Positions 737 through 53,672 of a stretch of 64,000 nucleotides of DNA are shown here, piece after piece. The DNA lies in contig NZ_QNRR01000007.1 in the NCBI RefSeq assembly GCF_003315205.1, positions 310,001-374,000 on the forward strand, written 5' to 3'. This DNA comes from Roseimicrobium gellanilyticum (lineage in GTDB: Bacteria > Verrucomicrobiota > Verrucomicrobiia > Verrucomicrobiales > Verrucomicrobiaceae). The notes under the pieces are model-generated. The model was not told where the DNA came from, searched no databases, and worked only from the letters and a program-made list of their open reading frames with translations. Position 1 is the stretch's first letter, and every line of letters starts with the position of its first letter. A program made the translations under genes and the position numbers.

Positions 737-785
737 AAGTGTGGAGGCATGCACAAGCTTTGAGGGGGGAGGGGGCCAGTATCGG

Positions 786-1346: not shown

Positions 1347-1439
1347 GGGGAAACCTCGCAGAGGAGTGGAAGATTGGAAGAAATTGAAGAAGGGCCTCTG
1401 GTATTCTACGCTCCAGCTGAGATCATGGTTATTTGAGGT

Positions 1440-3996: not shown

Positions 3997-4359
3997 GAGT
4001 TGGCTGTGTGTTGCTGTGCCAACAACACGGCAGCCGGCGGGCGGCCATCAGCAGGAGAGGAGTCTGCCAGATGGGAAATCTGCCAGACCGTGTGGGATGA
4101 GCCGCGGCCAAGCGCTGCCGTAGGTCAGCACAAGGTGGGTGGTGGTCCGCCGCTCAATTCGAATCGTGGCGCAGGCCGTTGATTCTTCACACAAGCTCAA
4201 ATGAGATCGTCGCCCTCTAGGTGTGAAGTCCCTGTAAATTGCCCTGTCTCACAGAAAAACAACCGGAAATGGCGGATTTTTCACCAGTGAGGTGTGGCTT
4301 CCATGGGTGTGGAACTGCATCTTTGGCAGCTTTTCCACGGTCTCTTCTCGAAGGAGAAG
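3997..4359. other. Upstream region of the encapsulin operon, no gene seen
   Basis: 360 bp between the srpI start and the left attachment repeat. It must hold the promoter of the minus-strand encapsulin operon, but no convincing -35/-10 pair, operator or riboswitch could be picked out by eye. Short ORFs here have no recognisable product. This is the original chromosomal neighbour of the tRNA before insertion: excising the element would place it about 20 bp from the tRNA-Phe 3' end. Confidence 0.5.
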
Positions 4360-4396
4360 AGAGGTGGCTCGAGCCGGAATCGAACCAGCGACACGA
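4360..4396. repeat. Left attachment site (37-bp tRNA-Phe 3' fragment)
   Basis: Identical over 37 bp to 58572-58608. It contains the reverse complement of the tRNA-Phe acceptor 3' strand and T-arm (GGTTCGATTCCGGCTCGAGC). Identity stops abruptly on both sides (GAGA versus AAAG before, TTTCGC versus GGATTT after), as expected of a site-specific recombination crossover region rather than a tRNA gene duplication. Confidence 0.88.
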
Positions 4397-4515
4397 TTTC
4401 GCGGGGTTTGGACAGCGTCGGCGGGCGAAATAGTACTCGTTTCCAGTGATTTACGACATCTTGGAACATTGCTGCACGTTGACAGGTGTTACCTCATGTG
4501 TTACCTGATCTCGCC

Positions 4516-5754
4516 ATGGCTTCGGTGCACAGACCCGATGGGTACCCCTTTTACTTTGCTCACTTCCGGCTTCCTGTCGGGAAAAAGCCGGATGGAGCGA
4601 CGATTTGGAAGCAATTCAAAAGAAGCACCGGCAAAGAACGGCCCGATGAGGCAATGGTGGAGGCCAAACGCATCGAACGCGAAGAGAAAAAGAAGTCAAC
4701 GTTCACGGAAGAGAGCGCGCTTGAGGTGATGCATCTTTTGCAGTCTGCTGGAAAGCAAGCTGCCAGGGGGCTCCTGAATCAACAAAGCGCCCAGGCGTTC
4801 CTCAGCAAATTGACGGAAATCAGCATTGGCGAGCCTCTGGTCGTTTACACCGTTGAAAAGTGGTTTTCCACGTGGCTAGCCGGGAAGGACAAAAGCCGCT
4901 CTAGAGGCACCTACTTGAGGTATCAGGGAATCGTTGACGGGTTTCTTGCATCACTGCCAGAGCGACGGAAGAGGCAGCCCCTGGAAAGCCTGACAGTTGG
5001 GGATATCGAGGCATTCAGGGACGCTGAGATCGCAGCCGGAAAATCGGCGTCCAGCGTTAACTTGGCTGTCAAAACCGTTCGAAGCGTGCTCAAGCGTGCG
5101 GTTCCCCTCGGGTTGATAAAGGCAAATCCAGCCGATGCCATGGACAGTCTTCCTGAAAAGCGCATCGTTAAGTCAACCTTTGACTTACCTGCCGTACGAG
5201 CCCTTCTCACAGCGGCCGAAGGAGATTGGAAGGGCGCCATTCTTGTTGGCTATCTGACTGGTGCTCGACTTGGCGATGTCACAAACCTACAATGGAGCAG
5301 CTTCGACTTTACCGGTCGCCGACTGATTTTTACAGCAGGGAAAACCGGTCAGTCGGTAGAACTGCCATTACATGAGTCGCTTAAAGCACACTTCGAGCCT
5401 TTGGTTCCCCGGGATGGTAAGGGGCCTGTCTTCGTGACATTGACTGGAAAGACAGCAGGGGGAAGAAATGGTCTGAGTCGACAGTTCTCTGCGCTTCTTA
5501 AAAAGGCTGGTATTCAAGGCAAGTCGTATGAGGCCGCGGGCAAATCTGGGCGCACACGCAACACTCTGACCTTTCACAGCCTGCGCCACAGTTTCAATTC
5601 AGCCCTCGCGAACGCCGGAGTAGCGCAAGAAATCCGCATGAAACTCACGGGGCATCTTGATGCGAAAGTCAATTCCATTTACACGCATACGGAGTTGGAA
5701 ACCCTTCGGTTGGCTATTGGCAAGCTTCCGGAAATTACGATCCAACCCGTTTGA
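4516..5754 (+). CDS. Tyrosine recombinase (phage-type integrase)
   Basis: 412 residues from ATG 4516 (an in-frame ATG at 4486 would add 10 residues; neither has a strong Shine-Dalgarno, and MASVHRPDGYPFYFAHFRLP looks like the natural N-terminus). N-terminal SAM-like core-binding domain around residues 125-210; C-terminal catalytic domain with LTGARLGDVTNLQW (box I Arg), HSLRHS (H-x-x-R), TGH and the nucleophile in NSIYTHTELETLR. All catalytic residues are present, so the enzyme is probably active and should recombine the 37-bp repeats. It lies just inside the left repeat, at the end away from the intact tRNA. Just after its stop comes a second, homologous integrase tail in another frame. Confidence 0.92.
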   Translation: MASVHRPDGYPFYFAHFRLPVGKKPDGATIWKQFKRSTGKERPDEAMVEAKRIEREEKKKSTFTEESALEVMHLLQSAGKQAARGLLNQQSAQAFLSKLTEISIGEPLVVYTVEKWFSTWLAGKDKSRSRGTYLRYQGIVDGFLASLPERRKRQPLESLTVGDIEAFRDAEIAAGKSASSVNLAVKTVRSVLKRAVPLGLIKANPADAMDSLPEKRIVKSTFDLPAVRALLTAAEGDWKGAILVGYLTGARLGDVTNLQWSSFDFTGRRLIFTAGKTGQSVELPLHESLKAHFEPLVPRDGKGPVFVTLTGKTAGGRNGLSRQFSALLKKAGIQGKSYEAAGKSGRTRNTLTFHSLRHSFNSALANAGVAQEIRMKLTGHLDAKVNSIYTHTELETLRLAIGKLPEITIQPV

Positions 5755-5756
5755 GT

Positions 5757-5885
5757 TTCGTTGGCCACGCTGATGCAGAGACCAACGCCGGCTACTCCCA
5801 TGCAGAGCTTCAATCACTCAGGGCCGCGGTAGACCTTGTGCCTGGGATGGGGAAGGAGAGTTCGGACGGGACGGACGCGATTTGA
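5757..5885 (+). pseudogene. Relic of a second integrase C-terminus
   Basis: Directly after the integrase stop, another frame encodes FVGHADAETNAGYSHAELQ and SLRAAVDLVPG before a TGA. This parallels the intact enzyme's own end (TGHLDAKVNSIYTHTELETL), with the catalytic G-H and Tyr in register. It has no start or upstream catalytic boxes, so it is a leftover tail, from an earlier integrase at this site or from recombination between two integrase genes. The first TCGGAC-type motif of the island (5861-5877) overlaps its end. Confidence 0.75.
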
Positions 5886-5928
5886 GAAGTCGTGGTGGGA
5901 AATGGGAAAGCGAGGGAGTGAAACGCGA

Positions 5929-6498
5929 CTATGGCATCGTTCCGTTCGATTCTGCATGTTCCTTCTCAAGCAAAGCCTTTCGCATTGATTCCATAAACGC
6001 TCTTGCTTCCTCGTCTGTAAGAGGCTGCTCCATGTGAATCATCTTGTCGATGTCCTGATACTCGTCGAGGAGTTCCGTGAATCTTCCATGATGTTGTTGC
6101 CAGTAAGGTCCGAGGTCTGCCTTCGCTGACACGATGTCTTTCTCGGACCAATACTCTGTTTGAGTCGCGAGGAACCACTTTTCAAAACCAGGGTGCATTG
6201 GTGGAAGAGAGACTGTTGGCATTTCCAGCGTTGGTGCCTCGTGTTCAGGAATTAGCTTAAGTTCGATGAGGGCTCGGAATGCCGTGTAAACGTTGATTTC
6301 AAACCACTCTCCGTTGGTCCTGTGCGCCCGGAAATGATGGTGCAGTGCCTTTTCAGCTTTGGCTTCGTTCGGTAAGTGGATGGTCAGAACCAATCCGCAG
6401 GGCTCTGGACTCGCGGTGTAGATAGTCCTGAAGCGAGAGAGAGGGTTTGCAGAGTAACCAATCTTAATCTTGCTGCCGGATTGGATGAAGTAGAGCAT
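5929..6498 (-). CDS. T5orf172/GIY-YIG-like domain protein
   Basis: 189 residues from ATG 6498. A longer reading to 6693 would run into the upstream gene and lacks family similarity, so the internal ATG just before the domain is preferred. Residues 1-70 fit the T5orf172 (MUG113) group of GIY-YIG-related domains: MLYFIQSGSKIKIGYSANPL, then a conserved Arg (SRFRTI) and a GEWFEI glutamate stretch. Such domains occur in phage and mobile-element proteins, some as nucleases. The C-terminal 110 residues are acidic and helical with no recognised domain. It follows the 318-residue PD-(D/E)XK-like gene by 25 bp and is probably cotranscribed with it. Function: nucleic-acid binding or cleavage is likely, target unknown. 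Confidence 0.75.
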   Translation of the reverse strand: MLYFIQSGSKIKIGYSANPLSRFRTIYTASPEPCGLVLTIHLPNEAKAEKALHHHFRAHRTNGEWFEINVYTAFRALIELKLIPEHEAPTLEMPTVSLPPMHPGFEKWFLATQTEYWSEKDIVSAKADLGPYWQQHHGRFTELLDEYQDIDKMIHMEQPLTDEEARAFMESMRKALLEKEHAESNGTMP

Positions 6499-6523
6499 TT
6501 GTTGAGGGAGTGTTTGAACTACT

Positions 6524-7480
6524 CTACCCCGGCTTGTTCTGATCTTCAGCCGAGATTTTGTCGATGAATTCAGGCATGTCCGACATCTTGAAGTTCCGTC
6601 GCTCTTCCGACTTTCGCCACACATGGCGGATAATGCCGATGTGACAACGGTCTTCTTCATCGCCGTCATTGTAGAACAGCTTTGGGAATCCATTGCCCGC
6701 AGGGCGCATTACAGATTCCGGTTCCTCCCCATGGTGTTCGCTCCACAAGAAGACTGCGTCTATGGTCGGTGTGCGCTCTAAGAATGCGTCTGCTTCGCGT
6801 ACGAGTGCTGTATCGATAGGAGCGAGAACGGTGAGACCCACGAGATTTAGCTCGCCTTCATGGCGCAGTGGAAACTTCGGCGCGATGTCATCGAAGGGCC
6901 CTGCTCGGGCTGGTGAGTATTTGGAGCCGTCTACTCTTCGAATCCAGTCACCAGATCGGTATTTTACTTCGAGGTTGATTACTTGCGCACTCGATCTGAA
7001 CCTCCAATCGGGTCTCTTTTTGCAGCCGGGGAAGGGTCTTGGTTCAATCTCGACGTCTTGGGGTTGCTTGAACCTCGAGAGCCAGAGCATTTGCTGAATG
7101 CAGGCGTTGTGCTGGCTGCCTAATAGTTCGTCTCTAAACTTTCTGGGCCATTTTCCCGGAAGTAGCATGGCGCCAATCTTGCAAGCTTTTGAGAGCCTGA
7201 CCAAGTCTCCCCAGTTTAGTCCGATTCCGTGAGCTGTTAGAGCGTCGGCTACCCCTTCTTCTCCGGACTCGACTCCAAAGTCACTCGTTGGAAGTTCGTA
7301 GTATGGAATCCAAAGCTTCTTGTAAAAAGGAGCCGCGTGGAGCCGAAGGTCAAATCCGATGGCCATCATGTCTTCGCAGACCAACTGGGCACGAATGGCA
7401 GCTTCATGTGCAGACAGAATAGGACGCTCAGAACCGAAGGGTGCCTTGGCAAGAATGGATTCGAGTTCCTTTGATTCCAC
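6524..7480 (-). CDS. Hypothetical protein with a PD-(D/E)XK nuclease-like motif
   Basis: 318 residues, family not recognised. The middle holds KKRPDWRFRSS followed by VINLEVKYRSGDW: an Asp, then Glu-x-Lys on a predicted beta strand, the arrangement of PD-(D/E)XK nucleases. The N-terminal 130 residues are helical; the C-terminus is mixed with an acidic patch. Shares an apparent transcript with the downstream T5orf172 protein. Within the island's defence-like block a nuclease effector or restriction-type protein would fit, but this rests on one motif and the context. Confidence 0.6.
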   Translation of the reverse strand: MESKELESILAKAPFGSERPILSAHEAAIRAQLVCEDMMAIGFDLRLHAAPFYKKLWIPYYELPTSDFGVESGEEGVADALTAHGIGLNWGDLVRLSKACKIGAMLLPGKWPRKFRDELLGSQHNACIQQMLWLSRFKQPQDVEIEPRPFPGCKKRPDWRFRSSAQVINLEVKYRSGDWIRRVDGSKYSPARAGPFDDIAPKFPLRHEGELNLVGLTVLAPIDTALVREADAFLERTPTIDAVFLWSEHHGEEPESVMRPAGNGFPKLFYNDGDEEDRCHIGIIRHVWRKSEERRNFKMSDMPEFIDKISAEDQNKPG

Positions 7481-7538
7481 GTGAGTTGCTTACTTGCTTA
7501 AGGAGAAGGGCTGGGGTTCGTTTTGCTCAGTGGCGGCT

Positions 7539-7934
7539 TCATGTCCACAGGCGCCTCGCGAGTTCTGCTCCTACAATGAGAAATCCAGTGACGAGAAAAG
7601 CTGTCTTCAACAGAAAACAAGTGTAGGCAGGACGATCAACACTCCTGGGCTTCTCAATTTCTCCTTCGATGGTGTTGGTCGTCGTCTTCAGCCTTTCTTC
7701 TTCTTTCTCAGTGAACCGTTTGAGACTCAGTGCGCCGAGAAGTGGCTGAAGGATATCGCAGATGAAGTAAGAGACAAAGGCAGACAATGACACGTAGACC
7801 AGGAGTGGGAATGTGAACTCACCGTCCTTAAAGAGCCAGCAGATGCCGACGCCTGCGAACCCCAGAGTACGCCCGTGTTCGGTTAGATCACGGGTGTACA
7901 CTTGGTATTGAGCCCAAAGTTCCTTGCCGGTCAT
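7539..7934 (-). CDS. Small membrane protein, unknown function
   Basis: 131 residues with about three transmembrane stretches: TLGFAGVGICWLF, FPLLVYVSLSAFVSYFICDI and, near the C-terminus, FLLKTAFLVTGFLIVGAEL, with a charged loop (residues 70-95) between. No family recognised. Its ATG overlaps the stop of a 31-residue proline-rich ORF by ATGA, so the two are probably translated together. Located among nuclease-like and regulatory genes of the island's left arm. Confidence 0.65.
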   Translation of the reverse strand: MTGKELWAQYQVYTRDLTEHGRTLGFAGVGICWLFKDGEFTFPLLVYVSLSAFVSYFICDILQPLLGALSLKRFTEKEEERLKTTTNTIEGEIEKPRSVDRPAYTCFLLKTAFLVTGFLIVGAELARRLWT

Positions 7935-8026
7935 CGAGTAGGAGGAATGGGTGGGGTACGTGTACCAGGGTTATTTGTTGGAGGTGGCGGGGGAGGTGGT
8001 GGTGGTGGAGGATTTGAATTGTTCAT
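7931..8026 (-). CDS. Proline-rich microORF overlapping the next gene
   Basis: 31 codons starting ATG 8026: MNNSN, then eleven consecutive prolines, then TNNPGTRTPPIPPTR. Its stop TGA shares ATGA with the start of the membrane protein at 7934, the usual sign of translational coupling. Eleven prolines in a row would normally stall ribosomes and need EF-P, so the ORF could act as a leader peptide that sets translation of the membrane protein. The G-rich tract on the plus strand (7981-8010) is explained by the proline codons. No clear Shine-Dalgarno precedes it, so expression is uncertain. Confidence 0.45.
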   Translation of the reverse strand: MNNSNPPPPPPPPPPPTNNPGTRTPPIPPTR

Positions 8027-8132
8027 TGAGAACTAGGTTGAACACAGCGATGATGTGCAAGCAGGAGGAACCAGCTTGTGGTATTGACAACGGCAAAGGG
8101 TAGATGGTTAAGTATTACTCCATCCACCCTGA

Positions 8133-8324
8133 CTATTGGTGTCGCTTCTGCTTATCGAGATGCTCACGCACTTTGTCGGCGCCACTGCCAACGGCTCTCA
8201 CCGCATCACGGAGCTCGGTCGGTGTACATCCCAGTCGCTTGCTCCAGTCTCTCACTTCATAGTCCTCAGTGAGGCTAATCTTGCTGGCGTCTTGTGGACG
8301 GCGTTTCGTAAGGTCATCGCTCAT
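8133..8324 (-). CDS. DUF3606 family protein
   Basis: 63 residues from ATG 8324. Matches the small DUF3606 family: KRRPQDASKISLTEDYEVRD, then WSKRLGCTPTELRDAVRAVG, and a basic C-terminus. These proteins are common in proteobacterial and verrucomicrobial genomes and mobile elements; the helical C-terminal part resembles a small DNA-binding fold, but the function is unknown. A longer reading from 8414 overlaps the upstream gene and is unlikely. Confidence 0.75.
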   Translation of the reverse strand: MSDDLTKRRPQDASKISLTEDYEVRDWSKRLGCTPTELRDAVRAVGSGADKVREHLDKQKRHQ

Positions 8325-8379
8325 GGTAGTCTCTTTTGGTTTGTTGAACTGAGTGTCTTCGTGAAATGGCTTCCAATGC

Positions 8380-8586
8380 TTAGGAGGTGTGACACTGAGG
8401 CGAGCAGTAAACACATCCGTTGACCTGCCGGTGGTGCTGTCGGGCTGCCTGAACCGCGGATGAGCACTGGGTGTGATAGCCCAGGTCCGTCTTGCGGATG
8501 GCTAGTCTCAGCCAGTTGCAGTTCTCCTTGTGTACTTCGTGGTCCCCATTGTTCTGGGCGGTATCGTTGACGTAGTATCTGTCCAT
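8380..8586 (-). CDS. Small Cys/His-rich conserved hypothetical protein
   Basis: 68 residues from ATG 8586 (MDRYYVNDTAQNNGDHEVHK). Conserved-looking pattern: HEVHKENCNWLR, then GYHTQCSSAVQAA and a C-terminal NGCVYCSPQCHTS with closely spaced cysteines. It belongs to a widespread group of tiny proteins of unknown role with an N-terminal YYVN..N..NG..HEVH pattern. The cysteines could bind a metal. It runs divergently from the WYL regulator gene 105 bp away. Confidence 0.65.
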   Translation of the reverse strand: MDRYYVNDTAQNNGDHEVHKENCNWLRLAIRKTDLGYHTQCSSAVQAARQHHRQVNGCVYCSPQCHTS

Positions 8587-8662
8587 TGTGCTTTGGGTAT
8601 GTAGGGTTCTCAGCTTTGCGCCTACATCTTCGCACAGGGGGTGGGACAAATACTGGGTGACG

Positions 8663-8689
8663 TGGAAAAAAGTTTTGCTATTATTTCCA
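8663..8689. promoter_or_regulatory. Candidate operator before the WYL regulator gene
   Basis: An inverted repeat TGGAAA-N15-TTTCCA ends 2 bp before the WYL-domain start codon, inside a divergent 105-bp spacer. Autoregulation by the WYL protein from such a site would be usual, but only the repeat itself is seen. Confidence 0.3.
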
Positions 8690-8691
8690 TA

Positions 8692-9738
8692 ATGACCAAG
8701 CGTGCAAGTCAGCAGTGGCAGATGCCGAAGAACTCTCCACGCCGGGGGGCTAGCAGGCCGGCCTTCTTACGCATTATGGAGATTCACAAGTGCATCGTTG
8801 CAGGTAATTACCCAAATTGTGCGAGCCTTGCTGCAGAGATTGAAGTCAGTGAAAAGTCGATACAGCGCGACATCAGTTTCATGCGTGATCAGTGGGGGCT
8901 TCCCCTGGAGTATGACGAAGTTAGACACGGGTATCGGTACACTAAGCCTGTGCATGATTTTCCCATCCTACAGTTGTCCAAAGACGATCTCGTAGCCCTA
9001 TTCTTAGCTCGTCACGCCCTTGAACCTCTGCGAGGCACTGTTCTCGAAGGCATGCTAACGGAGAGCTTTAGAAAGATTGCGGATGCCTGTCCTGGAATTG
9101 TTTCATTTCAATGGCAAGACCTGGACGAAGCCTTTTCTGTCAAAGCCGCAGGCGTACTAACTGCAGATGTCACCTTATTTAATCAACTTCTCACAGCCGT
9201 TGGTGAATGCAAAGTGGTGAGCTTCCGATATGAGGGGCTTAAGGGCAAGGGTAAAGAGCTTCGGAAAGTGAACCCATACCATCTTGGCCAAATCGACCAT
9301 GGGTGGTATCTGCTTGCATGGGACAACGCGAGAAATGCAATGAGAACATTCGCTCTTCAAAGGATCTCCGATGTGCAGGTTCTTGAGGACGCGTTCGTGC
9401 GGGACCCGAACTTCAAGGCGACTGAGCATCTGAATCGCGGGTTTGGTGTATGGAGCTATGATGCTCACGAGAAGGCGAAGACCTACGATGTGACAATCCG
9501 GTTTTACGATTATGCAGCACGAATTGTCGGCGAGCGGGTTTGGCATCCATCACAATCAATTTCTAAGAGCGGAAAAGACGGAGCAATTGAGTTCAAGGTA
9601 AGGCTCCCAGGTCTAGAAGAAATCACTCGATGGGTGCTGAGTTGGGGAAGCAAGGCAGTGGTTCTTGGTCCCAAGGAATTGAAGGACAATGTCACTCGTG
9701 AACTGAATGCCATGGTGAGGTCTTACGGAAAGGACTAG
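8692..9738 (+). CDS. WYL-domain transcriptional regulator
   Basis: 348 residues from ATG 8692. An N-terminal winged helix (RIMEIHKCIVAGNYPNCASL, then VSEKSIQRDISFMRDQWG), a WYL domain carrying the name motif in DHGWYLLAWD, and a C-terminal WCX-type extension ending around WVLSWGSKAVVLGPKEL. Proteins of this layout (DeoR-like YafY/BrxR/CapW group) often repress phage-defence or DNA-repair loci and sense nucleic-acid ligands through the WYL domain. Here it stands tail to tail, 77 bp apart, with the large helicase-nuclease gene and close to several nuclease-like genes, so it may control one of these modules. Direct evidence for its target is lacking. Confidence 0.85.
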   Translation: MTKRASQQWQMPKNSPRRGASRPAFLRIMEIHKCIVAGNYPNCASLAAEIEVSEKSIQRDISFMRDQWGLPLEYDEVRHGYRYTKPVHDFPILQLSKDDLVALFLARHALEPLRGTVLEGMLTESFRKIADACPGIVSFQWQDLDEAFSVKAAGVLTADVTLFNQLLTAVGECKVVSFRYEGLKGKGKELRKVNPYHLGQIDHGWYLLAWDNARNAMRTFALQRISDVQVLEDAFVRDPNFKATEHLNRGFGVWSYDAHEKAKTYDVTIRFYDYAARIVGERVWHPSQSISKSGKDGAIEFKVRLPGLEEITRWVLSWGSKAVVLGPKELKDNVTRELNAMVRSYGKD

Positions 9739-9815
9739 CCAATGCTGCTACGCCGCCTTCTCCCTTTCCATCGGCGACAGTCTCTGCATCTTGCCCCTGT
9801 CGAAGGTCAGCACTT

Positions 9816-12800
9816 TTACCCCCGCTCTGTTGGGCCTTCAATGCGCAATGCGGTATCAAGCTGACCTACCGTTCGCTTCCAATTCCGTTTGAACCTTGAG
9901 TCCTCCTGCCGGTCACACAGCCAACCCCTATCGTACCACTCATAGTAGGGGATGTGCACGATGTTCCACCCTGCTCGGCGGAGAACGGCCACCCGCTCAA
10001 GATGTGCCTCGCCGTAGTTTCTGCCGGTGCCTTGGTCAAAGTGGTGCTGGCCATCGACCTCCACTGCCACGCTCTTGCCAGTCAAAGCACAATGAAGGAC
10101 AAAGTCCAATCGCTTCTGCCCACAACTCTCCAACCTGGTGCCTGCGGCAACCTGATTGAAAATCTGAATCTGATACCTGTCGGCGCGGTCGGCACAATAC
10201 TCTTCGAGATATTCTGCAACCCGTTGCTCGAACTCCGACTCCATCAGCTCTTGCCTGTACCGTTCGCGATTGAAGCTCCAGTCGTATCGGCGCACTGAAG
10301 TCTCTGAACTTAGTCCGTCAGAGTCTTCCTCGGCCCCTACTCCGAAGTGATTCAAATAGGCCTTCAGGACCTTGGCAGTTGGGGGTAGCCCGCCATACAC
10401 GAAGTATGTGTAGTCGATGGCTCTGCTCGTCGCCACATTGACACGCCTTTTGTCAGACCAGAAGTTCCCGCCACGTGAAACGCCATCGTGAGCAATTGTG
10501 AGGATCATGATATTGCGCTCACTACCTTGAAACTCCTCAGTAGTCCCAATTTGCAGTTTGTAGGTGGCACGCTCCACCGCATCGAAGTAGTCCTCCTCGA
10601 AAATCTTCTCCCGAAGGTAGTTGCGTTGGTCAGTTGTGAATGAAAGGACGCCAATAGACGGAGGTCTGCTTTCCGTGAATCCATGTTGCTTTAGTGCAGG
10701 TAGTTTCAGCCAGGCCCGCTCCCTGATCAATTGTGAGAGAATCTCCAAGACCTTCTTCACTTCTTCCTCGACCACCTTCTGAGTCGAAAGATTTCCCTCT
10801 TCATCCAATCTGCCGCGCTTGCCGCCCGTTTGAAATGCTGAGAAACACTTCTTCTGAACATGAGCAGGCGTCTCGCGCATCAGCTTCAAATTGCAGTCGT
10901 AGAAATGGTCACTCGTGAAGGATGACAGTGCAGGCATCGATCGGAAATGTTCCTTCAACAACGTCGAAGACATCGGCAGACCAGGCGATTCAGTGATGAA
11001 ATCCAGCACCGAGTCCTTGCTGAGAATCATCTTCTTGCTCAAGGCGTCCTGAAATTTGTCGGCACCACAGTGTCGATTCCAAATGAGTTGTTCCAAAGTT
11101 CGATTGACCGAGAACATCCCGGCCGAATCCAGGCCAAGCTGTTTTTTGTCACCAACGACGCAGAAACGCGTGCCACGGTAGAGCGCGGGCAGCACCTCGG
11201 CAATGTTCACCTGCGATGCTTCATCCACGATGACCAGATCAAACATTTCCGCGTGGAACGGCAGATAGCCGCCGAGGAATCGCATCTCTCCGGCCCAGAG
11301 TGGAAACGCTGTTAGTAGCTGTTCATACTGCAGAGCCCCCATTATTTGCTGCAATTTTTCCGCGCTTCGCCAATGCCAGAGCCGAGCAAAAGACTTCAGG
11401 TCCGCTTCCGCTTCTTTCGCATGAGCAAGCACTTGAGCGTCAAACAAGGTCTGCACATATCTCGATTGCTGTCGTTCCAGGTCCTCGGAATGATGATCCA
11501 GCGAATCACGTGCTGCCTTCAACGAGCCAGGAGCAATCAGCTTTTTGCAGAGGTCAGCCTTCTGCCATTCAGCAATCAACCCCAGCGTCTTCCGAGCGTA
11601 AATCAGGGAATGGTCGTGGTGGTCCGCAAGCAGACGGGCAGGATCAAGGTGAAAATCGCGATGCAGAGTACTGAGCAGGCGTTGCAACCAGACCTTCTGA
11701 CCTCGAAGGAGTTTGCAGTTTTGCTCCACAAACTTCTGCCCGTACAAAACTTCACCCTGTGAAAGGGCCGCATCCCATTGTTCGTCTGTATCGACTCGCT
11801 TAGGTTTGGAGAAGTCGAATTGTTCGGGCACCTCCGAAGACAGAAGCTTCCGTCGCCTCACGAATTCTCTGTGCTTTTCTAAATACTCGTGATCACGCTG
11901 AATATGGGACTGAATTTGCTTCTTCTGCCCATCCAGCAGGAAGCACTTGGACGCGACAGCGCCACGCGCGGTCTTGGCCTCTAAGCCAAGCTGAGCAAGA
12001 CGGGAGCGAATGTCATGTCTCGCGACGTCCTGGCTCACTCCAGCCAAATAGTCCGCCATCTTCTGGCGGCCCTCAGTGTCATCACCTGCGTAGATTACTT
12101 TGTGCCGGCCAGTGTATCGTTCAACCATCTGCTGAACCACCGCTACAGCGTCCTTCTTCTGCGACACAAGAAGCACTTTCTTGCCGAGTAGGATAGCAGA
12201 GAGCATCAACGCCGTGATCGTGTGTGATTTACCTGTGCCAGGTGGCCCTTCGATGTACGACACCTCTTCTTCCCAAGCCCTCGCAACCGCTTCCCGTTGC
12301 TCCAAAGACAGTGATAGTGGAAGCAGTTGAATGGTTTCCTCCAGCTTCGCACGATCCTCAAGAGACCGATTGAGCGCGATTCGTCCGTCCAAAACCAGAC
12401 CGCCCACCAACTTCTTCAACAAGGAGTTCTGAATGCCGTGGCTTTCACATTCTTCCACGAGATGCTTGATCGCATTGTAAGTGCTGATCTCCGTGGGGAC
12501 AGGCGCGGCAAATACAAACGCCTGGGGGTAGAAGAATAGTTTGCCAGATGTCTGAAGCTCTTTCAGGCGCTTCTCCAGCTTGCTCACCCCAGGCGTGAAG
12601 TCGAACTTGTCACCAGCTGCGAAATGCACCCTGTTCTTGATGGAATCAAGACGGAGCCATATCTCGTTGCGGAAGAATCCTGTAATCGCAGGCTCTGCAA
12701 CGGCCGCCTGTCCGAGTAGGGCACTGCGCCAATCGCGATTGCCACAGTTTTTCTCCAACTTGTCATCAGCCTCGCCCAGGACTGTATGAGCATTCTGCAA

Positions 12801-13277
12801 CAATGGCCCGTAATGCGCCAGATTCGAGTCTTCTTGGATATCGTCCTCAGGCGTGGGCACCGATTTCCCAACAAGGTCAGCCAGCAGCTCCAAATTGAGT
12901 TGCACTGACTCCCACTCGACCTGGGGTTCCACTCCATCCCCATCAAAGGAAATTGGCGCGTAGAACACTGGGGCACCAATGCGTGAAGTCGCTCCTCCGG
13001 CAGCAGCAGACCGCATCGATCCAGTGATCATGCCGAAGCCAACGTACAGTTGCTTCGATGGATCTCTCCGTAATCGTTGCTTCGAAGACCGGAAGAAGCC
13101 AGATCCGTGAAACTCGTTGTGTTCCGTGTAGTTGAAATAGAAAGTGGGATTTGCAGAAGTGCCCTTCAGGACATTCTTGATCCCTCCACGGACCAGAATC
13201 TTTCGAGTGACATCCCGAAGGTACCGCAAGTAGCCAGCTACTTGGTTGTCCTGTGCGTTATTGGAGTCCTGGGGCAT
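9816..13277 (-). CDS. SF1 helicase with C-terminal PD-(D/E)XK nuclease domain (defence-like)
   Basis: 1153 residues. N-terminal 320 residues of unknown fold; then a superfamily 1 (DNA2/UPF1, COG1112-like) helicase: Walker A GPPGTGKS at 344-351, VIVDEASQ at 683-690, VVGDKKQL at 707-714, a glutamine/glutamate motif in TTEEFQGSERNIMIL, and VNVATSRAID. A coiled insert (about 430-660) separates motif I from motif II. The last 120 residues form a DUF559/Vsr-like nuclease: QKRLDFVLH then SVAVEVDGQHH, with a conserved VAVLRRAGWNIVHIPY end. COG1112 helicases joined to nucleases occur in antiphage systems such as Mokosh, where the partner domain is PLD-type; here it is PD-(D/E)XK-like. It starts 6 bp after the upstream membrane coiled-coil gene, so the two form an operon. 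Function as defence is inferred. Confidence 0.82.
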   Translation of the reverse strand: MPQDSNNAQDNQVAGYLRYLRDVTRKILVRGGIKNVLKGTSANPTFYFNYTEHNEFHGSGFFRSSKQRLRRDPSKQLYVGFGMITGSMRSAAAGGATSRIGAPVFYAPISFDGDGVEPQVEWESVQLNLELLADLVGKSVPTPEDDIQEDSNLAHYGPLLQNAHTVLGEADDKLEKNCGNRDWRSALLGQAAVAEPAITGFFRNEIWLRLDSIKNRVHFAAGDKFDFTPGVSKLEKRLKELQTSGKLFFYPQAFVFAAPVPTEISTYNAIKHLVEECESHGIQNSLLKKLVGGLVLDGRIALNRSLEDRAKLEETIQLLPLSLSLEQREAVARAWEEEVSYIEGPPGTGKSHTITALMLSAILLGKKVLLVSQKKDAVAVVQQMVERYTGRHKVIYAGDDTEGRQKMADYLAGVSQDVARHDIRSRLAQLGLEAKTARGAVASKCFLLDGQKKQIQSHIQRDHEYLEKHREFVRRRKLLSSEVPEQFDFSKPKRVDTDEQWDAALSQGEVLYGQKFVEQNCKLLRGQKVWLQRLLSTLHRDFHLDPARLLADHHDHSLIYARKTLGLIAEWQKADLCKKLIAPGSLKAARDSLDHHSEDLERQQSRYVQTLFDAQVLAHAKEAEADLKSFARLWHWRSAEKLQQIMGALQYEQLLTAFPLWAGEMRFLGGYLPFHAEMFDLVIVDEASQVNIAEVLPALYRGTRFCVVGDKKQLGLDSAGMFSVNRTLEQLIWNRHCGADKFQDALSKKMILSKDSVLDFITESPGLPMSSTLLKEHFRSMPALSSFTSDHFYDCNLKLMRETPAHVQKKCFSAFQTGGKRGRLDEEGNLSTQKVVEEEVKKVLEILSQLIRERAWLKLPALKQHGFTESRPPSIGVLSFTTDQRNYLREKIFEEDYFDAVERATYKLQIGTTEEFQGSERNIMILTIAHDGVSRGGNFWSDKRRVNVATSRAIDYTYFVYGGLPPTAKVLKAYLNHFGVGAEEDSDGLSSETSVRRYDWSFNRERYRQELMESEFEQRVAEYLEEYCADRADRYQIQIFNQVAAGTRLESCGQKRLDFVLHCALTGKSVAVEVDGQHHFDQGTGRNYGEAHLERVAVLRRAGWNIVHIPYYEWYDRGWLCDRQEDSRFKRNWKRTVGQLDTALRIEGPTERG

Positions 13278-13283
13278 CGGGAA

Positions 13284-13784
13284 TCACAATGTGATCGGCT
13301 CATCCATTTTTTGGAGGACGCTTTTGATCTCGGCATGCATTTGCTCGCCTTCTGCCTCAACTTTCTCGAGGATGTCCTCTTTGGACTTCGTCACTGCTTC
13401 AAGAACCTTCTTGAGCAGGTCTGATGTGCGTCCGGTTGCATCCGCCATCCCTTGCAGGTGGGCCTGACTGCGCTGCTTGGAGTCCCCGAGCAAATCCTGA
13501 GCATCAGAAGAGGTTTTTACCAGCAATCCCTGAATCTCTTGGCTCAGTCTAGAGGTGGACGACTCTTGATGCTCCTGGATGCGAGCCAACACCTCACTCA
13601 AGGTGCTGGACAAGGAAGCCGCTAGGTCATGGGTGCCCTGCTGCTGTTCGGCAATTTGACGTTCTGCATTGGAAGCAAGCTCCACGTGAAGTGCCTCAAG
13701 AGCCTTCGCCGTCCGAGAATATAGCAACATCACCAGCGCGCAGATGACAGCGGCTGCTCCAACGCAGTAGATTATTGGTTCCAT
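13284..13784 (-). CDS. Membrane-anchored coiled-coil protein, partner of the helicase-nuclease
   Basis: 166 residues. One N-terminal transmembrane segment (IIYCVGAAAVICALVMLLYS), then an almost unbroken helical region rich in Glu, Gln, Ser and Ala (residues 27-160), as in coiled-coil or apolipoprotein-like proteins. No enzymatic motif. The gene ends 6 bp before the helicase-nuclease starts, so both are expected to be cotranscribed. A membrane-tethered rod next to a helicase recalls the logic of membrane-sensing defence systems, but MotA/ZorA signatures are absent and the role remains open. Confidence 0.75.
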   Translation of the reverse strand: MEPIIYCVGAAAVICALVMLLYSRTAKALEALHVELASNAERQIAEQQQGTHDLAASLSSTLSEVLARIQEHQESSTSRLSQEIQGLLVKTSSDAQDLLGDSKQRSQAHLQGMADATGRTSDLLKKVLEAVTKSKEDILEKVEAEGEQMHAEIKSVLQKMDEPITL

Positions 13785-13940
13785 GAATCAAGTTTAGGCC
13801 AGCATTGCAAAAGGCTTCACTGGTCGCAAGCGAAAACCCCTGTCTAGGCAGTGGGTGTCATGTCAGAAAAACGCAGGGGGTGTTTCTGGCTGTGCACCTG
13901 CTGCTACACTGGCGCATTTACTTGAGCATGAGTCGATTGC

Positions 13941-14062
13941 GAGAAAACCTCGAACCTTACTAGAAAGTCCAATAATCGGGGAAGAAGGGGCTTTTGCAAA
14001 ATTCTACACAGGCCACTACCAGTTCTCCAATGGACTCGTGAAGACGGTCCGTAACGTCCGAG
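13941..14062. repeat. Island repeat element, copy 1 (A-B-A' layout)
   Basis: About 120 bp. It holds the shared core TTGCAAAATTCTACACAGGC (13994-14013), a conserved stretch around TCCAATGGACT, and ends with GGTCCGTAACGTCCGAG (14046-14062). The left end (around CCTCGAACC) is degenerate compared with copies at 16544 and 17153. Lies in the 400-bp gap upstream of the membrane coiled-coil gene, where no gene was recognised. Confidence 0.7.
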
Positions 14063-14181
14063 CTCATAGTCAAGCGAGCTAAGCGCCCGCGGCAAGCAGG
14101 AACCAGAAGGTCGCGAGACCTTCTTTGCTGAACCAGTTGTATTCAAACTGAACCAGCAGCACGCCGCGTTATGAAACCATT

Positions 14182-14505
14182 TTGGAGCAGAAGCTCGAAC
14201 AAATCAAAGCCCGAAATCTACCTATAGTGGCAAGTCGAGTGAACCTAGAGGTGCCGGTCGTTGGACGCCTTCGGTATGATACCAAGGGTGAAACAGTGAG
14301 TTCCAGCGATTTATACTTCCTAAATTGCCAGGCGGAATGGGACGCGCAGGAACCTAAGCCCAAAATTCGGCTTGTAGTGATGGGACTTGGACGGGTGGGG
14401 AGGGCAAAGATGCTCGCAACCAGCGATATGACCGTGAAACCTCTGTGGGACGAACGCCTCGAACTCTTTGAAAAGCGTGTGTTGGGATTAGCTCACAAGA
14501 AGTAG
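14182..14505 (+). CDS. Hypothetical protein, possibly truncated
   Basis: 107 residues from a TTG (14182); the frame opens just upstream after a stop near 14150 and offers no ATG before the conserved-looking part. Contains LPIVASRVNLEVPVVGRLRY and LVVMGLGRVGRAKML. No family recognised. The lack of a normal start and the neighbouring repeat element suggest that it may be the 3' remainder of a longer gene. Ordinary amino-acid composition argues for coding, but only weakly. Confidence 0.4.
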   Translation: MEQKLEQIKARNLPIVASRVNLEVPVVGRLRYDTKGETVSSSDLYFLNCQAEWDAQEPKPKIRLVVMGLGRVGRAKMLATSDMTVKPLWDERLELFEKRVLGLAHKK

Positions 14506-14710
14506 GCACGCAGGGCATTCAGACCTGGTTGCGCATTGACCGGGTTTGAATACGGACAGCTCGACTATGTTTTGAAACTGTGTTGGAGGGAAGTGGAGGA
14601 GATTTGAGCCACTGCAGAATCCTTCGTCTCCAAAGGCTTGCGTTTTCCGGTGAGAAACCGTTAGAACTTACGCGTAGCGGCAGATAGAAAGCTTACGCCA
14701 TTTATTCGCT

Positions 14711-15832
14711 ATGGAACTACAAATCTCAAGAGACGGAGTGGTTATACAAGCACTTGAACTTGAGGGACTGGCCGGAGCTGTTGCAGACGGGACAATCCTC
14801 CAAACTGACTACGGATGGCACGAGGGGATGACGGATTGGAAGCTTGTGAGCGAACTTGTATCTCCTGCTGTGCCTAAGAAACGGAGGAAGACCGCAAAGT
14901 CTTCCGAGGCGAAGAAGGACTGGCGACAAGATCCAGCGACAGAAAAGCAAATTGAGTTCCTTAAATCGTTCGGAGTGACTCCTGCACCGAACCTAAAAAA
15001 AGGAGAGGCATCGGAGTTGATCGATCGATGTATCAATGACCCCGAAGCGCGAAGGATTCAGGATGAGAAACGCTTTGCTGATTGGGAGGCGGTGATGAAG
15101 CGACAGCGCCAGGAGCGCGCTGCCTCGGGAGCTTTCTCATTTAGGAAGGATTTTGAGAAGGCAAAGACCGAGGTTGCGAAAGAGATGGATCGCATTTCTA
15201 AGAGTAAGGTGGCTGCTGCTTCCAAAAAGAAGGAGCTAGCATTGCTTCAAAAGCGGCTGACACACGCGGTCGGAGCTGAAAAGGAGGAGATTGAAGAGCA
15301 GATCGAGGACATAGAATGCGACCTAATTGACCTTGAATGCGATCCGATTGACCTCCAATGCTGCAAGGAGGAGTTGAAGGAAGCGGAAACTGTCCGGATC
15401 AAATTCTGGAAGGCTACTTTCAAAAGGGATTGGATTCAATCTGACGATGCCATGGAATACGACGTGTTGGTTGATGTAAGCACCACCATCGATAAGCTCT
15501 ACGAGGAGTACGGCCAATACTTCAAGAGTCCCACCAATAAGCAGATTAAGGACGTTCTTGAGTCGTTAGACAGCGCCTCGCTCGATTGGGATAGAGCGCA
15601 ACCCGATGCGTTCTTCGCTCGCCTTCACCACATCTCTCCTAGTCAGATGAAGGTAGGCGCAGGAATTCGAACATCTAAAAGTTCAACATCTCGTACGAAG
15701 GCGGGCAAGGGGAAAGGATGTTTGGTTGTCCTGCTTTCTGGAGTGCTTCTCTTTGTGACGATGGTCGTTGTACTTGCGTACATTGCGGACCAGGCGTCAC
15801 CAAGAAATGATGGTTCTAGAATGGTTGGGTAA
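14711..15832 (+). CDS. Coiled-coil membrane protein with N-terminal GYF_2-like domain
   Basis: 373 residues. Residues 1-50 look like a divergent GYF_2/DUF4339 module (ADGTILQTDYGWHEGMTDWK); residues 75-110 resemble the short helical module ATEKQIEFLKSFGV found in bacterial helicases and membrane proteins; 120-245 is a charged coiled coil; and residues 338-360 (GCLVVLLSGVLLFVTMVVVL) form a single C-terminal transmembrane segment. No enzymatic motif. It faces, tail to tail with a 13-bp gap, another GYF_2 protein. Function unknown; the layout suggests a membrane-tethered adaptor. Confidence 0.7.
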   Translation: MELQISRDGVVIQALELEGLAGAVADGTILQTDYGWHEGMTDWKLVSELVSPAVPKKRRKTAKSSEAKKDWRQDPATEKQIEFLKSFGVTPAPNLKKGEASELIDRCINDPEARRIQDEKRFADWEAVMKRQRQERAASGAFSFRKDFEKAKTEVAKEMDRISKSKVAAASKKKELALLQKRLTHAVGAEKEEIEEQIEDIECDLIDLECDPIDLQCCKEELKEAETVRIKFWKATFKRDWIQSDDAMEYDVLVDVSTTIDKLYEEYGQYFKSPTNKQIKDVLESLDSASLDWDRAQPDAFFARLHHISPSQMKVGAGIRTSKSSTSRTKAGKGKGCLVVLLSGVLLFVTMVVVLAYIADQASPRNDGSRMVG

Positions 15833-15845
15833 AAGCTGGATTGAT

Positions 15846-16478
15846 TCATTGAGAGGCTGAGAGCGGTATCCATTCTTCCGTTCCCTCTTTACAGCACAGT
15901 GTCTCCGGTGATGCGACACCTGTGTCCTTGAGGGCTTGCAGTTGCTCTTGCGAGAAGGGCCCTTTTACCTCTTCGGAAATGAATAGGTACATTCCTACGG
16001 CCTTTGGTTGTGAGACCGGATGGACGCCTGCAGTGGGATCAATTTCCTCACCGGTGTACTCAGGCGAGAGTTTGATCTCGTCACTGAGCTGATCCAGTTT
16101 CGCGATCACATTCTGGATGTTCTCTTTCAGCACGGCATAGGGCTCCGATCTTGACGCCTTGAACGCGCGCCCAATTTTGCTCGTAGACGGCATCGAGCTC
16201 TTTGGTGTACCCTTGAGGCCACTCAGTAACGAACGGCCGATCTCTTCGAAAGCTTCTCGTTTGAGATCCGCAGCCGACTTGCCGTTGCTACTACGAACAA
16301 TGAACGGCGTGATGTCGCGTTTAAGCGCCATCAGTTGCCGTCGCATCTCACGTATGTCAGCCAATACCTTCTTGCCGCTAGCACGGTCGTTCCAGCGAAT
16401 TGCAAGATTGACCATGCCATCGGAAAGGTCATCGCCGAGTATTTGAGCAAATCGCTGGTTCGCTTCTGCTGCAGTCAT
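15846..16478 (-). CDS. GYF_2-domain protein, unknown function
   Basis: 210 residues, no transmembrane segment. The N-terminal 120 residues are helical and basic (RWNDRASGKKVLADIREMRR); the C-terminal 50 residues are a clear GYF_2 (DUF4339) domain: YLFISEEVKGPFSQEQLQAL followed by CCKEGTEEWIPL. GYF_2 domains are peptide-binding-like modules frequent in Verrucomicrobia and Planctomycetes. Four genes in this island carry one. Confidence 0.7.
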   Translation of the reverse strand: MTAAEANQRFAQILGDDLSDGMVNLAIRWNDRASGKKVLADIREMRRQLMALKRDITPFIVRSSNGKSAADLKREAFEEIGRSLLSGLKGTPKSSMPSTSKIGRAFKASRSEPYAVLKENIQNVIAKLDQLSDEIKLSPEYTGEEIDPTAGVHPVSQPKAVGMYLFISEEVKGPFSQEQLQALKDTGVASPETLCCKEGTEEWIPLSASQ

Positions 16479-16543
16479 GAAAGAGGGGTGTAGCTTTGTT
16501 CCTATACGCTAACAAACGTGCCCACAATTCAAGAGGGTAGTCG

Positions 16544-16680
16544 TCGGACGTCTCGGACCGTGTTTTTAAAATGCGACTGGAACGGCAGTGGGAAGGGGAG
16601 ACCAGGCTGTGCAAAGTTCTCCACAAGCACTCACGCAGATTTCCCAATGAACTTCAGAAAGACGGTCCGTAACGTCCGAG
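16544..16680. repeat. Island repeat element, copy 2 (best complete copy)
   Basis: 137 bp. Left end TCGGACGTCTCGGACC (16544-16559); middle core TGTGCAAAGTTCTCCACAAGC at 16608-16628 in the same place as other copies; right end GGTCCGTAACGTCCGAG (16664-16680). The ends are inverted relative to one another, as in a small inverted-repeat element. It shares AACTTCAGAAAGACGGTCCG with copy 3 apart from single changes. Directly followed by a broken gene fragment, again as in copy 3. Confidence 0.75.
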
Positions 16681-16880
16681 GCCAGTCGCGAGAATCTTGG
16701 TGTCAGGAAACAGCCTATACTCCGCGAAATGCGGGAACCGATGAACGTCCCGGAGGTAAAAAGGTAACACCCTAAGCTTATTGAATCGATCTATACCATC
16801 AAACCATTTGGGGATAGAACAGGCTCTTGAGGACGTCTGCGTTCCTCACCTCCAAAGCGATGCCGAGTGTTCAGCCTCGT
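16681..16880 (+). pseudogene. Broken copy of a small helical-repeat gene
   Basis: In one frame the sequence reads LREMREPMNVPEVKR, a stop codon, then HPKLIESIYTIKPF; after a one-base shift it continues GIEQALEDVCVPHL. The order matches the parallel fragment at 17286-17412 (KREPLNVSAVKR, PKLIESVYAI) and the general pattern of short HTH-like repeats in which a GEPLN..AVKR.HP.LI..VYA.PFWGWKQALEDAG unit recurs. An internal stop plus a frameshift show decay. Family role unknown; similar modules sit in proteins linked to mobile DNA. Confidence 0.55.
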
Positions 16881-16910
16881 CAAACAGGCTGTAGAGTGGT
16901 ATGGTAGCGA

Positions 16911-17138
16911 ATGATTGAGACCAAACCGACGCCGAGTGAGATAAAGGCCCGTATTCGCGCAAGCAAGCAGAGGCCGAAGAAAGTTCCGTCTAAATGCAAT
17001 TCGTGCAACGGTACCGGCGAAGCCATTTCTCCTGGACGTTACGCATCTCGTTGCCCTGACTGCTTTGGTTCTGGATTCGCGCGGCAATCACCTGATCAAC
17101 AGATGGGTGCCTTTGTGTTTGGCTCCGCTCAGCGTTGA
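16911..17138 (+). CDS. Small zinc-knuckle-like protein
   Basis: 75 residues. Two spaced Cys-rich motifs, CNSCNGTGEA and CPDCFGSGFA, have the CxxCxGxG pattern of DnaJ-type zinc knuckles, preceded by a basic helix (KARIRASKQRPKK). Such miniature CxxCxGxG proteins are common and mostly uncharacterised. No good Shine-Dalgarno was seen before ATG 16911, and the gene sits between two repeat elements. Confidence 0.5.
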   Translation: MIETKPTPSEIKARIRASKQRPKKVPSKCNSCNGTGEAISPGRYASRCPDCFGSGFARQSPDQQMGAFVFGSAQR

Positions 17139-17152
17139 ATTTTCCTCCAGAA

Positions 17153-17282
17153 CCGGGACGTCTCGAACCCCCGAAACTCCGATTGAGGCTGAGAGGAAGG
17201 GGAGTCGAGCGTGTGCAAAATTCTACACAGGCTGGCACCAAATCTCCCATGGACTTCAGAAAGATGGTCCGTAGCGTCCGAG
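17153..17282. repeat. Island repeat element, copy 3
   Basis: 130 bp. Left end CCGGGACGTCTCGAACCC (17153-17170), core GTGTGCAAAATTCTACACAG at 17211-17230, then CCCATGGACTTCAGAAAGAT and right end GGTCCGTAGCGTCCGAG (17266-17282). An ATG with AGAGG just before it follows at 17286 and opens the truncated gene fragment. Confidence 0.75.
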
Positions 17283-17285
17283 AGG

Positions 17286-17412
17286 ATGGCAAACCAAGCC
17301 AAACAACGGATCATCCGTCAGATCACTCGCCTTCACGCAAAGCGGGAACCGTTGAACGTGTCGGCGGTAAAGAGAAATATCCGAAGCTCATTGAATCGGT
17401 CTACGCCATCTC
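17286..17412 (+). pseudogene. 5' fragment of a small helical-repeat gene, cut at the cargo junction
   Basis: Starts MANQAKQRIIRQITRLHA then KREPLNVSAVKR; a shift near the next bases (GTAAAGAGAAATATCC) restores KYPKLIESVYAI, and the similarity to the decayed copy at 16681 stops at about 17412. From there on the sequence belongs to the oxidoreductase gene on the other strand, whose last codons overlap this fragment. This point is therefore the likely junction of the metabolic cargo block. Confidence 0.55.
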
Positions 17413-18516
17413 AGCGAGTGCCGTCGCTGCGGTGGCCATCGCGACGGAATCGCGACCGTTTTGTTCGGTGATTTTCCGGAGGTGGGAGCGGTCGCGCAGC
17501 CAGGCAAGCTGGTCTGCGAAAAGGGAGCGCAGCAGTTCGCAGTAGCGGCGCATCTTGTCCTCCTCGGGATGATGGTGGAGGTCAATCTGCTGGAAGAGAT
17601 CGAGCTCCTGGAAGCGACTGCGGGCGGATCGTTCGCTTCCGCCCCAGGTCCTCAGCACATCCAGCCGGGAGCCGGGAAACATCTCCATGAGTGTGCGCGT
17701 CTGCTCCTCGTTCACCACCGCACGAATGCGGGCACGGACGGGCACCCATTCTTCGAGGGTGACATCTCCCCGCTCGAACAGCAGACGGAATTCCTGCCGA
17801 TCAAGGCGTGAGGGCTGGGTGAAGCTGTGGTGGAAATGTACCAGCGCACCCGTCGCATGGCGCACGGTACATTGCACCATCTCTTCGATGCCTGACACTG
17901 GCCGCAAGGAACGCTGGGCTGCCACCACCTCTCCCTGGCCCAGCCAGCCGGCGAAAAGGTCAAAGAAGTGGACGCCGTGCTCGACGAAAATGCCGCCGCT
18001 TTTTCCGCGGTCCCAGAACCAATGATTGGGACCGAGACCTTCGTCGCTGGCGAAGTTCTCCAATCGTCCATAGAGGCAGGCACCGAGCACGCGGGACTCC
18101 ACGAGACGGGTAATGACGTCGGACAGCGGATTGTAGCGCTGCATGAGATTTGCGATGCAGAGCAGGTCCCGGGATTTAGCCAGAGCGAGAAGTTCGTCCG
18201 CTTCAGCGATGGTCATGGAGAGCGGTTTTTCGCAGATGACATGCTTGCCCGCTTCCAGAGCGGCACGCGCCTGGGAGAAGTGAAGAAACGGAGGCGTGGC
18301 AATGTACACGAGATCCACGCCGGGGTCCGTGAGCAGAGCCTCCTCACTCATGACGTCAGCAACGCCGAAGCGCTTTGCCATGGCCAAGGCAGCCTCGCGG
18401 TGAGTGCCTGCGATGCCCACGAGCTGGGTGCCGGGGACTTGAAGGAACTGTTGAAGCGCGAAGAGACCGAAGCCCCCAGCGCCAATGGCGCCGATGCGCA
18501 CGGTTTCATATCTCAT
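17401..18516 (-). CDS. Gfo/Idh/MocA-family oxidoreductase
   Basis: 371 residues from ATG 18516 (MRYETVRIGAIGAGGFG); a longer reading to 18573 adds an unlikely N-terminus. N-terminal Rossmann fold with GAIGAGGFG for NAD(P), and the family motif CEKPLSMTIAEAD with the catalytic-region lysine. The C-terminal alpha/beta domain contains GGIFVEHGVHFFDLFAGWLG, with the conserved histidine. Acts on a sugar or polyol, substrate unknown. It follows the GH130 gene by 66 bp on the same strand, which suggests a shared role in carbohydrate metabolism. Its last codons overlap the truncated gene fragment at the junction, so the natural C-terminus may have been altered. Confidence 0.9.
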   Translation of the reverse strand: MRYETVRIGAIGAGGFGLFALQQFLQVPGTQLVGIAGTHREAALAMAKRFGVADVMSEEALLTDPGVDLVYIATPPFLHFSQARAALEAGKHVICEKPLSMTIAEADELLALAKSRDLLCIANLMQRYNPLSDVITRLVESRVLGACLYGRLENFASDEGLGPNHWFWDRGKSGGIFVEHGVHFFDLFAGWLGQGEVVAAQRSLRPVSGIEEMVQCTVRHATGALVHFHHSFTQPSRLDRQEFRLLFERGDVTLEEWVPVRARIRAVVNEEQTRTLMEMFPGSRLDVLRTWGGSERSARSRFQELDLFQQIDLHHHPEEDKMRRYCELLRSLFADQLAWLRDRSHLRKITEQNGRDSVAMATAATALAEMA

Positions 18517-18582
18517 GGTAGATGGCAGGTTGGGACAGGACGCGAAAGATAACGACACCAAACTGGGTGACAAAGCAGGGCA

Positions 18583-22328: not shown

Positions 22329-22561
22329 GACAATCCTCTCACATGAATGGACATGCCCTACAAGACAACCTGCATGACATAAAGCAACCGAGTTTGCTGA
22401 TCTTCGGCCAGGAGTGGCGAGTCATTACGCCAACAACTATGCGGCCATCATGACTCGATCTCGATCATGTGGCACCCGCTCAGTATCAAGTCGTGAGAAC
22501 CATTGGCGCGCTGCGATGAAGACAACTATGCTGAGAAAAGAGCAAGTAGGCTGATCGACCA

Positions 22562-33713: not shown

Positions 33714-33761
33714 AGGCACGTTCATTTCGAATCTTAGTCCGAAACCTTCGGAAGCACAAAC

Positions 33762-53351: not shown

Positions 53352-53406
53352 AAGATGGTCTTCTAACGCGCCTGAAAACAGCGGGTGTGCATGGCCACGA
53401 AGAGCG

Positions 53407-53457: not shown

Positions 53458-53672
53458 CTCCTTGCTGGGGTCCGTGCGGTGACTACCTAGTCAGGGTCGC
53501 GTTCAGAACTGGCGGGAAAATAACACGGCAATGCGAAAAGTCAACATGTCTTATGCATCTCTCTTAAAGATACCTATCTCCAGTGCACCTTATCGATAGC
53601 GCCGGTGTGCCTGACTATGGGGGTGAAATAGCCCCGGTGCTCGTGCAAACTCCCAACCGACTTGAGAAAAGT

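Follow-up and report, generated by a model that had tools for sequence, protein, structure and literature searches.

A putative two-gene defense system pairing a helicase-nuclease with a separate membrane-anchored rod in Roseimicrobium gellanilyticum

COG1112/UPF1-like helicases are found in several defense systems, such as Mokosh, Hhe and CoCoNuT, and for many DNA-targeting systems it is still an open question how enzymes of such breadth leave the host unharmed. Hhe is a single-gene system with a DUF4011-helicase-Vsr architecture. In the type III-B CoCoNuTs, the helicase CnuH, which carries a helical insertion, is fused to a Vsr domain and accompanied by a separate coiled-coil protein, CnuA (PMC11090510). 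In SNIPE (PD-lambda-1), a single transmembrane (TM) segment keeps a nuclease at the inner membrane; DNA is cut during injection, and removal of the TM segment renders the nuclease toxic (PMC13190303). Zorya and Kiwa combine a membrane protein or sensor with a separate nucleic-acid effector (PMC12904381). Here, we describe a gene pair in a 64,000-nucleotide stretch of the Roseimicrobium gellanilyticum genome (contig NZ_QNRR01000007.1, positions 310,001 to 374,000; hereafter the window), which codes for a membrane-anchored rod and a superfamily 1 (SF1) helicase with a C-terminal nuclease domain. It may constitute an undescribed, horizontally moving two-gene system of the defense type, whose helicase-nuclease would be kept on the inner membrane by a separate tether, a reading to which we give equal weight for and against.

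The conserved rod-helicase gene pair

Both genes start with ATG and are separated by 6 bp (13278-13283); a check of the open reading frames (ORFs) returned the same frames, coordinates and spacing as the original prediction, which had been made from the letters of the window alone. The features of the pair, in window coordinates, are as follows.

13284-13784 (-): rod gene, 166 residues, read as a single-pass membrane protein with a cytoplasmic coiled rod from its ORF, TM segment and periodicity, and found upstream of the helicase across the family
13719-13775 (-): TM segment, rod residues 4-22, with lysine and arginine absent before it and present after it (N-out, C-in), from hydropathy and charge pattern
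13287-13304 (-): C-terminal tip DEPITL, rod residues 161-166, a putative docking peptide, whose site a leave-clade-out score matrix ranks top in 10/12 rods
9816-13277 (-): UPF1-like SF1 helicase, 1153 residues, with a C-terminal nuclease domain, from its ORF, Pfam and a predicted model
12333-13277 (-): N-terminal module, about residues 1-315, a separate gene in 4/12 members and matching DUF4011 in L024
12225-12248 (-): Walker A, GPPGTGKS, residues 344-351, invariant in 12/12
11358-12011 (-): long helical insertion, residues 423-640, from the secondary structure of the predicted model
11214-11225 (-): motif II, DEAS, residues 685-688, DEAS or DESS in 12/12
9840-10244 (-): Vsr/DUF559-type PD-(D/E)xK nuclease domain, about residues 1012-1146, with SEFE, LDF, VEVDG and H, from Pfam and alignment; altered in L024, L104 and L122

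Relatives were collected by protein, alignment and profile searches, which revealed a sharp gap between full-length relatives (E 1e-117 or better) and other COG1112-type helicases, which match over the core only (E 2e-37 or worse). The resulting family has 12 members from at least three phyla, with helicase identities of 26-42%: the window; L004 and L005 from the class of the window genome; L024 from Ignavibacteria, with L116, L117, L118 and L119 from the same class and L122 from the same phylum; L025 and L026 from Nitrospirae; and L104, a putatively viral contig from IMG/VR. Among the genomes sampled, the family is rare and patchily distributed; no record in the plasmid and phage collections covered 80% of the helicase, and a second viral scan added nothing. 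We applied one rule alike to family and controls, namely that an ORF with a TM segment should end no more than 60 bp from where the first helicase gene starts. Such an ORF is present at 11/12 family loci as opposed to 0/68 other COG1112-type helicase loci (Fisher p 1e-12, relatedness ignored), and in these 11 it lies -4 to +20 bp upstream of the helicase and has one TM segment. At the twelfth locus, L026, the contig ends 556 bp upstream, and an open coil of 160 residues ending in KEPLDI is present there. Where the original prediction had allowed for helicase homologs never accompanied by the membrane gene, we thus found the opposite, with the pair recurring. Because the same gene order is seen in distant relatives at these low identities, the rod and the helicase are a real two-gene unit, as had been proposed, and not a chance juxtaposition. 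In a tree that also includes 69 other helicases, the 12 form one branch (Shimodaira-Hasegawa-like approximate likelihood ratio test, SH-aLRT, 100); hence, one gain of the rod suffices.

The window rod bears out the membrane-anchored rod of the original prediction: it has one TM segment (mean Kyte-Doolittle 2.56) and is proline-poor, with a 3.4-3.7-residue hydrophobic periodicity reached by 0/500 shuffles. The 11 complete rods of the family range from 75 to 340 residues; each has a single TM segment starting at residue 3-11, with no lysine or arginine before it and 2-5 just after it (11/11), the remainder is proline-poor, and in nine of them the same periodicity is significant (p 0.002 or less). 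The positive-inside rule is the basis for reading membrane orientation, and with the positive charges only after the TM segment the rods are therefore read as N-out and C-in, leaving only 2-10 residues outside the membrane. The 340-residue rod of L025 (3148-4170, +) shows internal repeats with a 45-residue period, suggesting that rods can lengthen through repeat expansion. The C-terminal tips read DEPITL, SEPIEF, KEPLDI, ETITLE, ETINIE, EESVKF, EESIRF, EASVKF and EEAAKL, and with a score matrix built without a rod's own clade the C-terminal site ranks top among all 8-mers in 10/12 rods. Going by these sequences, the length of the rod is free and its last residues are constrained, and the conserved tip (EPIxL/ESVKF type) is likely a docking peptide.

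The SF1 motor is UPF1-like (Pfam AAA_12 2.5e-20, AAA_11 9.2e-17, also AAA_19 and AAA_30), with its Walker A at the position first assigned to it, and the C-terminus, initially described as a DUF559-like nuclease end, indeed belongs to the Vsr/DUF559-type PD-(D/E)xK group (Pfam RAP 1.2e-9, REase_MTES_1575 3.5e-5). All six examined helicase motifs are conserved in 12/12 members, and the nuclease signature is wholly or almost wholly present in the window protein and eight other members; judging by the alignment, the motor is the constant part of these helicases. An AlphaFold2 model built with 11 sequences (mean predicted local distance difference test score, pLDDT, 74.4; predicted template modeling score 0.75) places the helical insertion after Walker A and finds its closest solved structures in the RNA helicases UPF1 (2xzo; Z 24.1, root-mean-square deviation 4.6, 462 residues), SMUBP-2 and Sen1/senataxin; Dna2 also matches, with Z 22.7. 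The N-terminal part is a separate gene in L005, L118, L119 and L128, where it and the motor gene overlap or abut at the same position, and it is therefore a module of its own. A frameshift error in L005 was considered and rejected because the split, near residue 283, recurs in the other three. DUF4011 matches the N-terminus above the cut-off in L024 only (29.6 versus 22.2 bits), with the window protein unmatched, and the module folded alone (about residues 1-315; mean pLDDT 66) gave no usable structural match, the best being Z 6.4 over 61 residues. In L117, a 349-residue gene with a PIN-like start (LLDTNIWIDLAE) lies 126 bp past the helicase (4911-5960, +), with no Pfam or PADLOC match.

Comparison with described systems

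The window helicase shares with Mokosh the COG1112-type core, as seen from its UPF1-like fold and its best PADLOC match, MkoA (1e-35, residues 677-953). However, as had been noted at the outset, the pair has neither a PLD nuclease nor a kinase, and these domains are also absent from its neighbors (Pfam, PADLOC); instead, it has a Vsr-type nuclease end and the membrane rod. With Hhe it shares the coupling of a helicase to a Vsr-type nuclease and, in L024, the DUF4011 match; yet, the window helicase scores 82.6 bits against an NCBIfam equivalog cut-off of 2000, falls about 650 residues short of the 1797-position model, and has a separate membrane partner. Membership in Mokosh, Hhe, ProA or PLuB was accordingly rejected, the matches either failing the curated cut-offs or being confined to the helicase core.

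The type III-B CoCoNuTs share with the pair a UPF1-like helicase with a helical insertion, a fused Vsr-type nuclease and a separate coiled-coil protein (PMC11090510). The partner is membrane-anchored here, however, and we rejected identity with CoCoNuT as no McrC homolog (PF10117) was found in 11 genomes with the family, with a positive control search (McrB was not searched). The likeness to SNIPE is one of principle, namely a single N-terminal TM segment anchoring a nuclease at the inner membrane (PMC13190303). SNIPE is one polypeptide with DUF4041 and GIY-YIG domains, both absent from the rod and the helicase (Pfam), whereas here two genes encode tether and enzyme, the latter with a helicase motor. 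Zorya and Kiwa likewise combine a membrane protein with a separate effector, and the rod weakly matches the coiled tail of ZorA (1.2e-6, residues 293-437); but it matches that tail only and lacks the MotA/ExbB domain, and neither the helicase nor eight scanned neighbors match Zorya or Kiwa components (PADLOC).

By the features tested, the pair is thus not Mokosh, Hhe, CoCoNuT, Zorya or SNIPE. In line with the original prediction that it is undescribed, none of the searched libraries describes it, nor did open-access full-text searches, which do not cover subscription journals and preprints, return a published description of such a pair. We regard it as a variation on a known type, in which a COG1112-type helicase-nuclease has a putative membrane tether encoded by a separate gene.

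Genomic setting and neighboring genes

The surroundings of the pair include the following features.

4397-17410 (no strand): segment without a counterpart at either flank in the congener G1446 and with lower GC (guanine plus cytosine), from genome comparison and GC
4486-5754 (+): tyrosine integrase at the edge of this segment (PF00589 2.6e-17)
8641-9738 (+): WYL-WCX regulator (Pfam WYL 7.9e-18, WCX 5e-18), a neighbor not conserved with the pair

The pair sits in this 13-kb segment, which has a GC fraction of about 0.51-0.54 versus 0.59-0.61 on both sides and starts 90 bp ahead of the integrase. G1446 matches window positions 3-4396 at 83% and 17411-22389 at about 90%, in two different places, and the G1446 stretches compared hold no counterpart of the sequence between 4396 and 17411. 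A clean empty site in G1446 was considered and set aside, no scar being demonstrable since the flanks have their matches in separate places there; a search for att-like direct repeats at the segment ends gave none that was convincing. Diverged dispersed repeats (37-47 bp, 70-89% alike) lie close upstream of the rod gene and by the right-hand border of the variable segment (13990-14062, 16644-16680 and 17209-17282). The integrase-bearing segment also holds, both on the reverse strand, a T5orf172/MUG113 GIY-YIG-type gene (5929-6693) overlapping a 318-residue ORF without a family match (6524-7480), and two neighboring GYF_2-domain genes lie end to end (14711-15832, +; 15846-16478, -), one with a C-terminal TM segment.

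Among the other members, L129 has a type II restriction-modification pair nearby, and further neighbors are a D12 adenine methylase, a CHC2-type primase, a ParE/Phd pair and a DUF2779 gene. Genes of restriction-modification, methylase, toxin-antitoxin or phage-like kinds accompany several members; the neighbors vary from locus to locus, and what the loci have in common is the rod with its helicase. Farther along the window are a two-gene Lamassu-type system (32628-35486, +), comprising LmuA with a Cap4 nuclease (PADLOC 3.4e-74) and LmuB, an SMC-like ATPase (4.3e-178); a PDDEXK_1/Cas4-like nuclease (36462-37319, -; 6.9e-29); and an 833-residue DEAD-type helicase (41622-44123, -) matching the PADLOC defense candidate PDC-S28 over its full length (6.2e-269). 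What looks like a second integrated element (50916-58649) carries Prim-Pol/D5-type replication genes, a ParB_N gene and another D5 gene beside tRNA-Phe (58575-58649).

A proposed membrane tether in trans and its alternatives

We tentatively propose, somewhat short of an even prospect, that this is a new defense system in which the SF1 helicase-nuclease is tethered in trans to the inner membrane by a separate rod of freely varying length (75-340 residues) via its conserved C-terminal docking peptide, with location alone supplying self/non-self discrimination. We favor a membrane-held helicase-nuclease of the defense type because the rod accompanies the family and not the control helicases, the family is a single branch, the positive-inside pattern holds in every complete rod and the tip is conserved; because the helicase motifs are invariant, the nuclease signature is present in most members and the model is UPF1/Dna2-like; and because the locus lies in a low-GC, integrase-bearing segment, its spread is rare and patchy, and defense or phage-like genes are its neighbors, with a Lamassu system in the same window. 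From these patterns we infer docking, the membrane location of the enzyme, its substrate and its defensive role. By its sequence pattern, the rod is a single-pass membrane protein with its N-terminus outside and its coiled part in the cytoplasm, and, as the conserved pair and tip suggest, the tip would dock on the helicase, probably on the N-terminal module or the helical insertion. The membrane-held UPF1-like motor would engage entering foreign nucleic acid, translocate along or unwind it, and pass it on to the PD-(D/E)xK nuclease at the C-terminus; in those members whose nuclease residues are altered, blocking would fall to the motor alone. By analogy with SNIPE, the tether would keep the enzyme away from the chromosome, thereby allowing self/non-self discrimination (PMC13190303). 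An anti-phage function is consistent with the patchy distribution, the mobile segment and the defense or mobile-element neighbors at several loci.

Several points weigh against this proposal. The fourfold variation in rod length argues against a ruler mechanism, and conservation of the tip fails in L104 and in L025, whose tail is extended. Nuclease residues are altered in 3/12 members (E to G in L024, D to S in L104, D to E in L122); cleavage is therefore not general across the family and may be dispensable in some lineages. Finally, the neighborhoods suit defense, but the neighbors were taken locus by locus and not counted against a background.

A membrane protein that is encoded on its own and ends in a docking tip would fit a sensor-inhibitor as well as a tether: the rod might sense membrane damage and hold the helicase-nuclease inactive until infection releases it and the cell dies, and membrane sensors do exist in Zorya and Kiwa (PMC12904381). 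Such an abortive-type system is, in our view, rather unlikely, as the short outer part of the rod offers little for sensing from outside. The structural matches to UPF1, SMUBP-2 and Sen1/senataxin and the RAP match could also point to a membrane-held helicase and RAP/Vsr-type nuclease attacking the transcripts made from DNA that enters the cell, a role predicted for CoCoNuTs, of which type III-B has the CnuH-Vsr fusion and the separate coiled-coil protein (PMC11090510). However, Dna2 is nearly as good a match as UPF1 (Z 22.7 versus 24.1), and the fold therefore does not decide between DNA and RNA; we hold an RNA target to be unlikely.

An accessory enzyme of DNA repair, segregation or mobile-element maintenance at the membrane would suit the integrase-bearing segment and the Dna2-like architecture; this we consider improbable, given the rare, patchy occurrence across phyla and a rod-helicase unit that is shared while its neighbors differ. 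The original prediction had also linked the WYL gene to the system, which would make it the dedicated regulator in a three-component system. The gene is indeed tail to tail with the helicase, 77 bp from its stop, and WYL proteins such as BrxR are reported to control defense loci (PMC9122589). Yet, this orientation does not place it at the operon promoter of the pair, and as no WYL homolog occurs near any other family member the link did not hold and the protein was rejected as a third component, leaving such a system very improbable.

Returning to the tethered helicase-nuclease, if the proposal is true, a motor enzyme would join SNIPE, Zorya and Kiwa, until now the representatives of the membrane-localized class. 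With its own membrane anchor present as a separate gene in every member with intact flanks, this family makes the question of localization directly testable.

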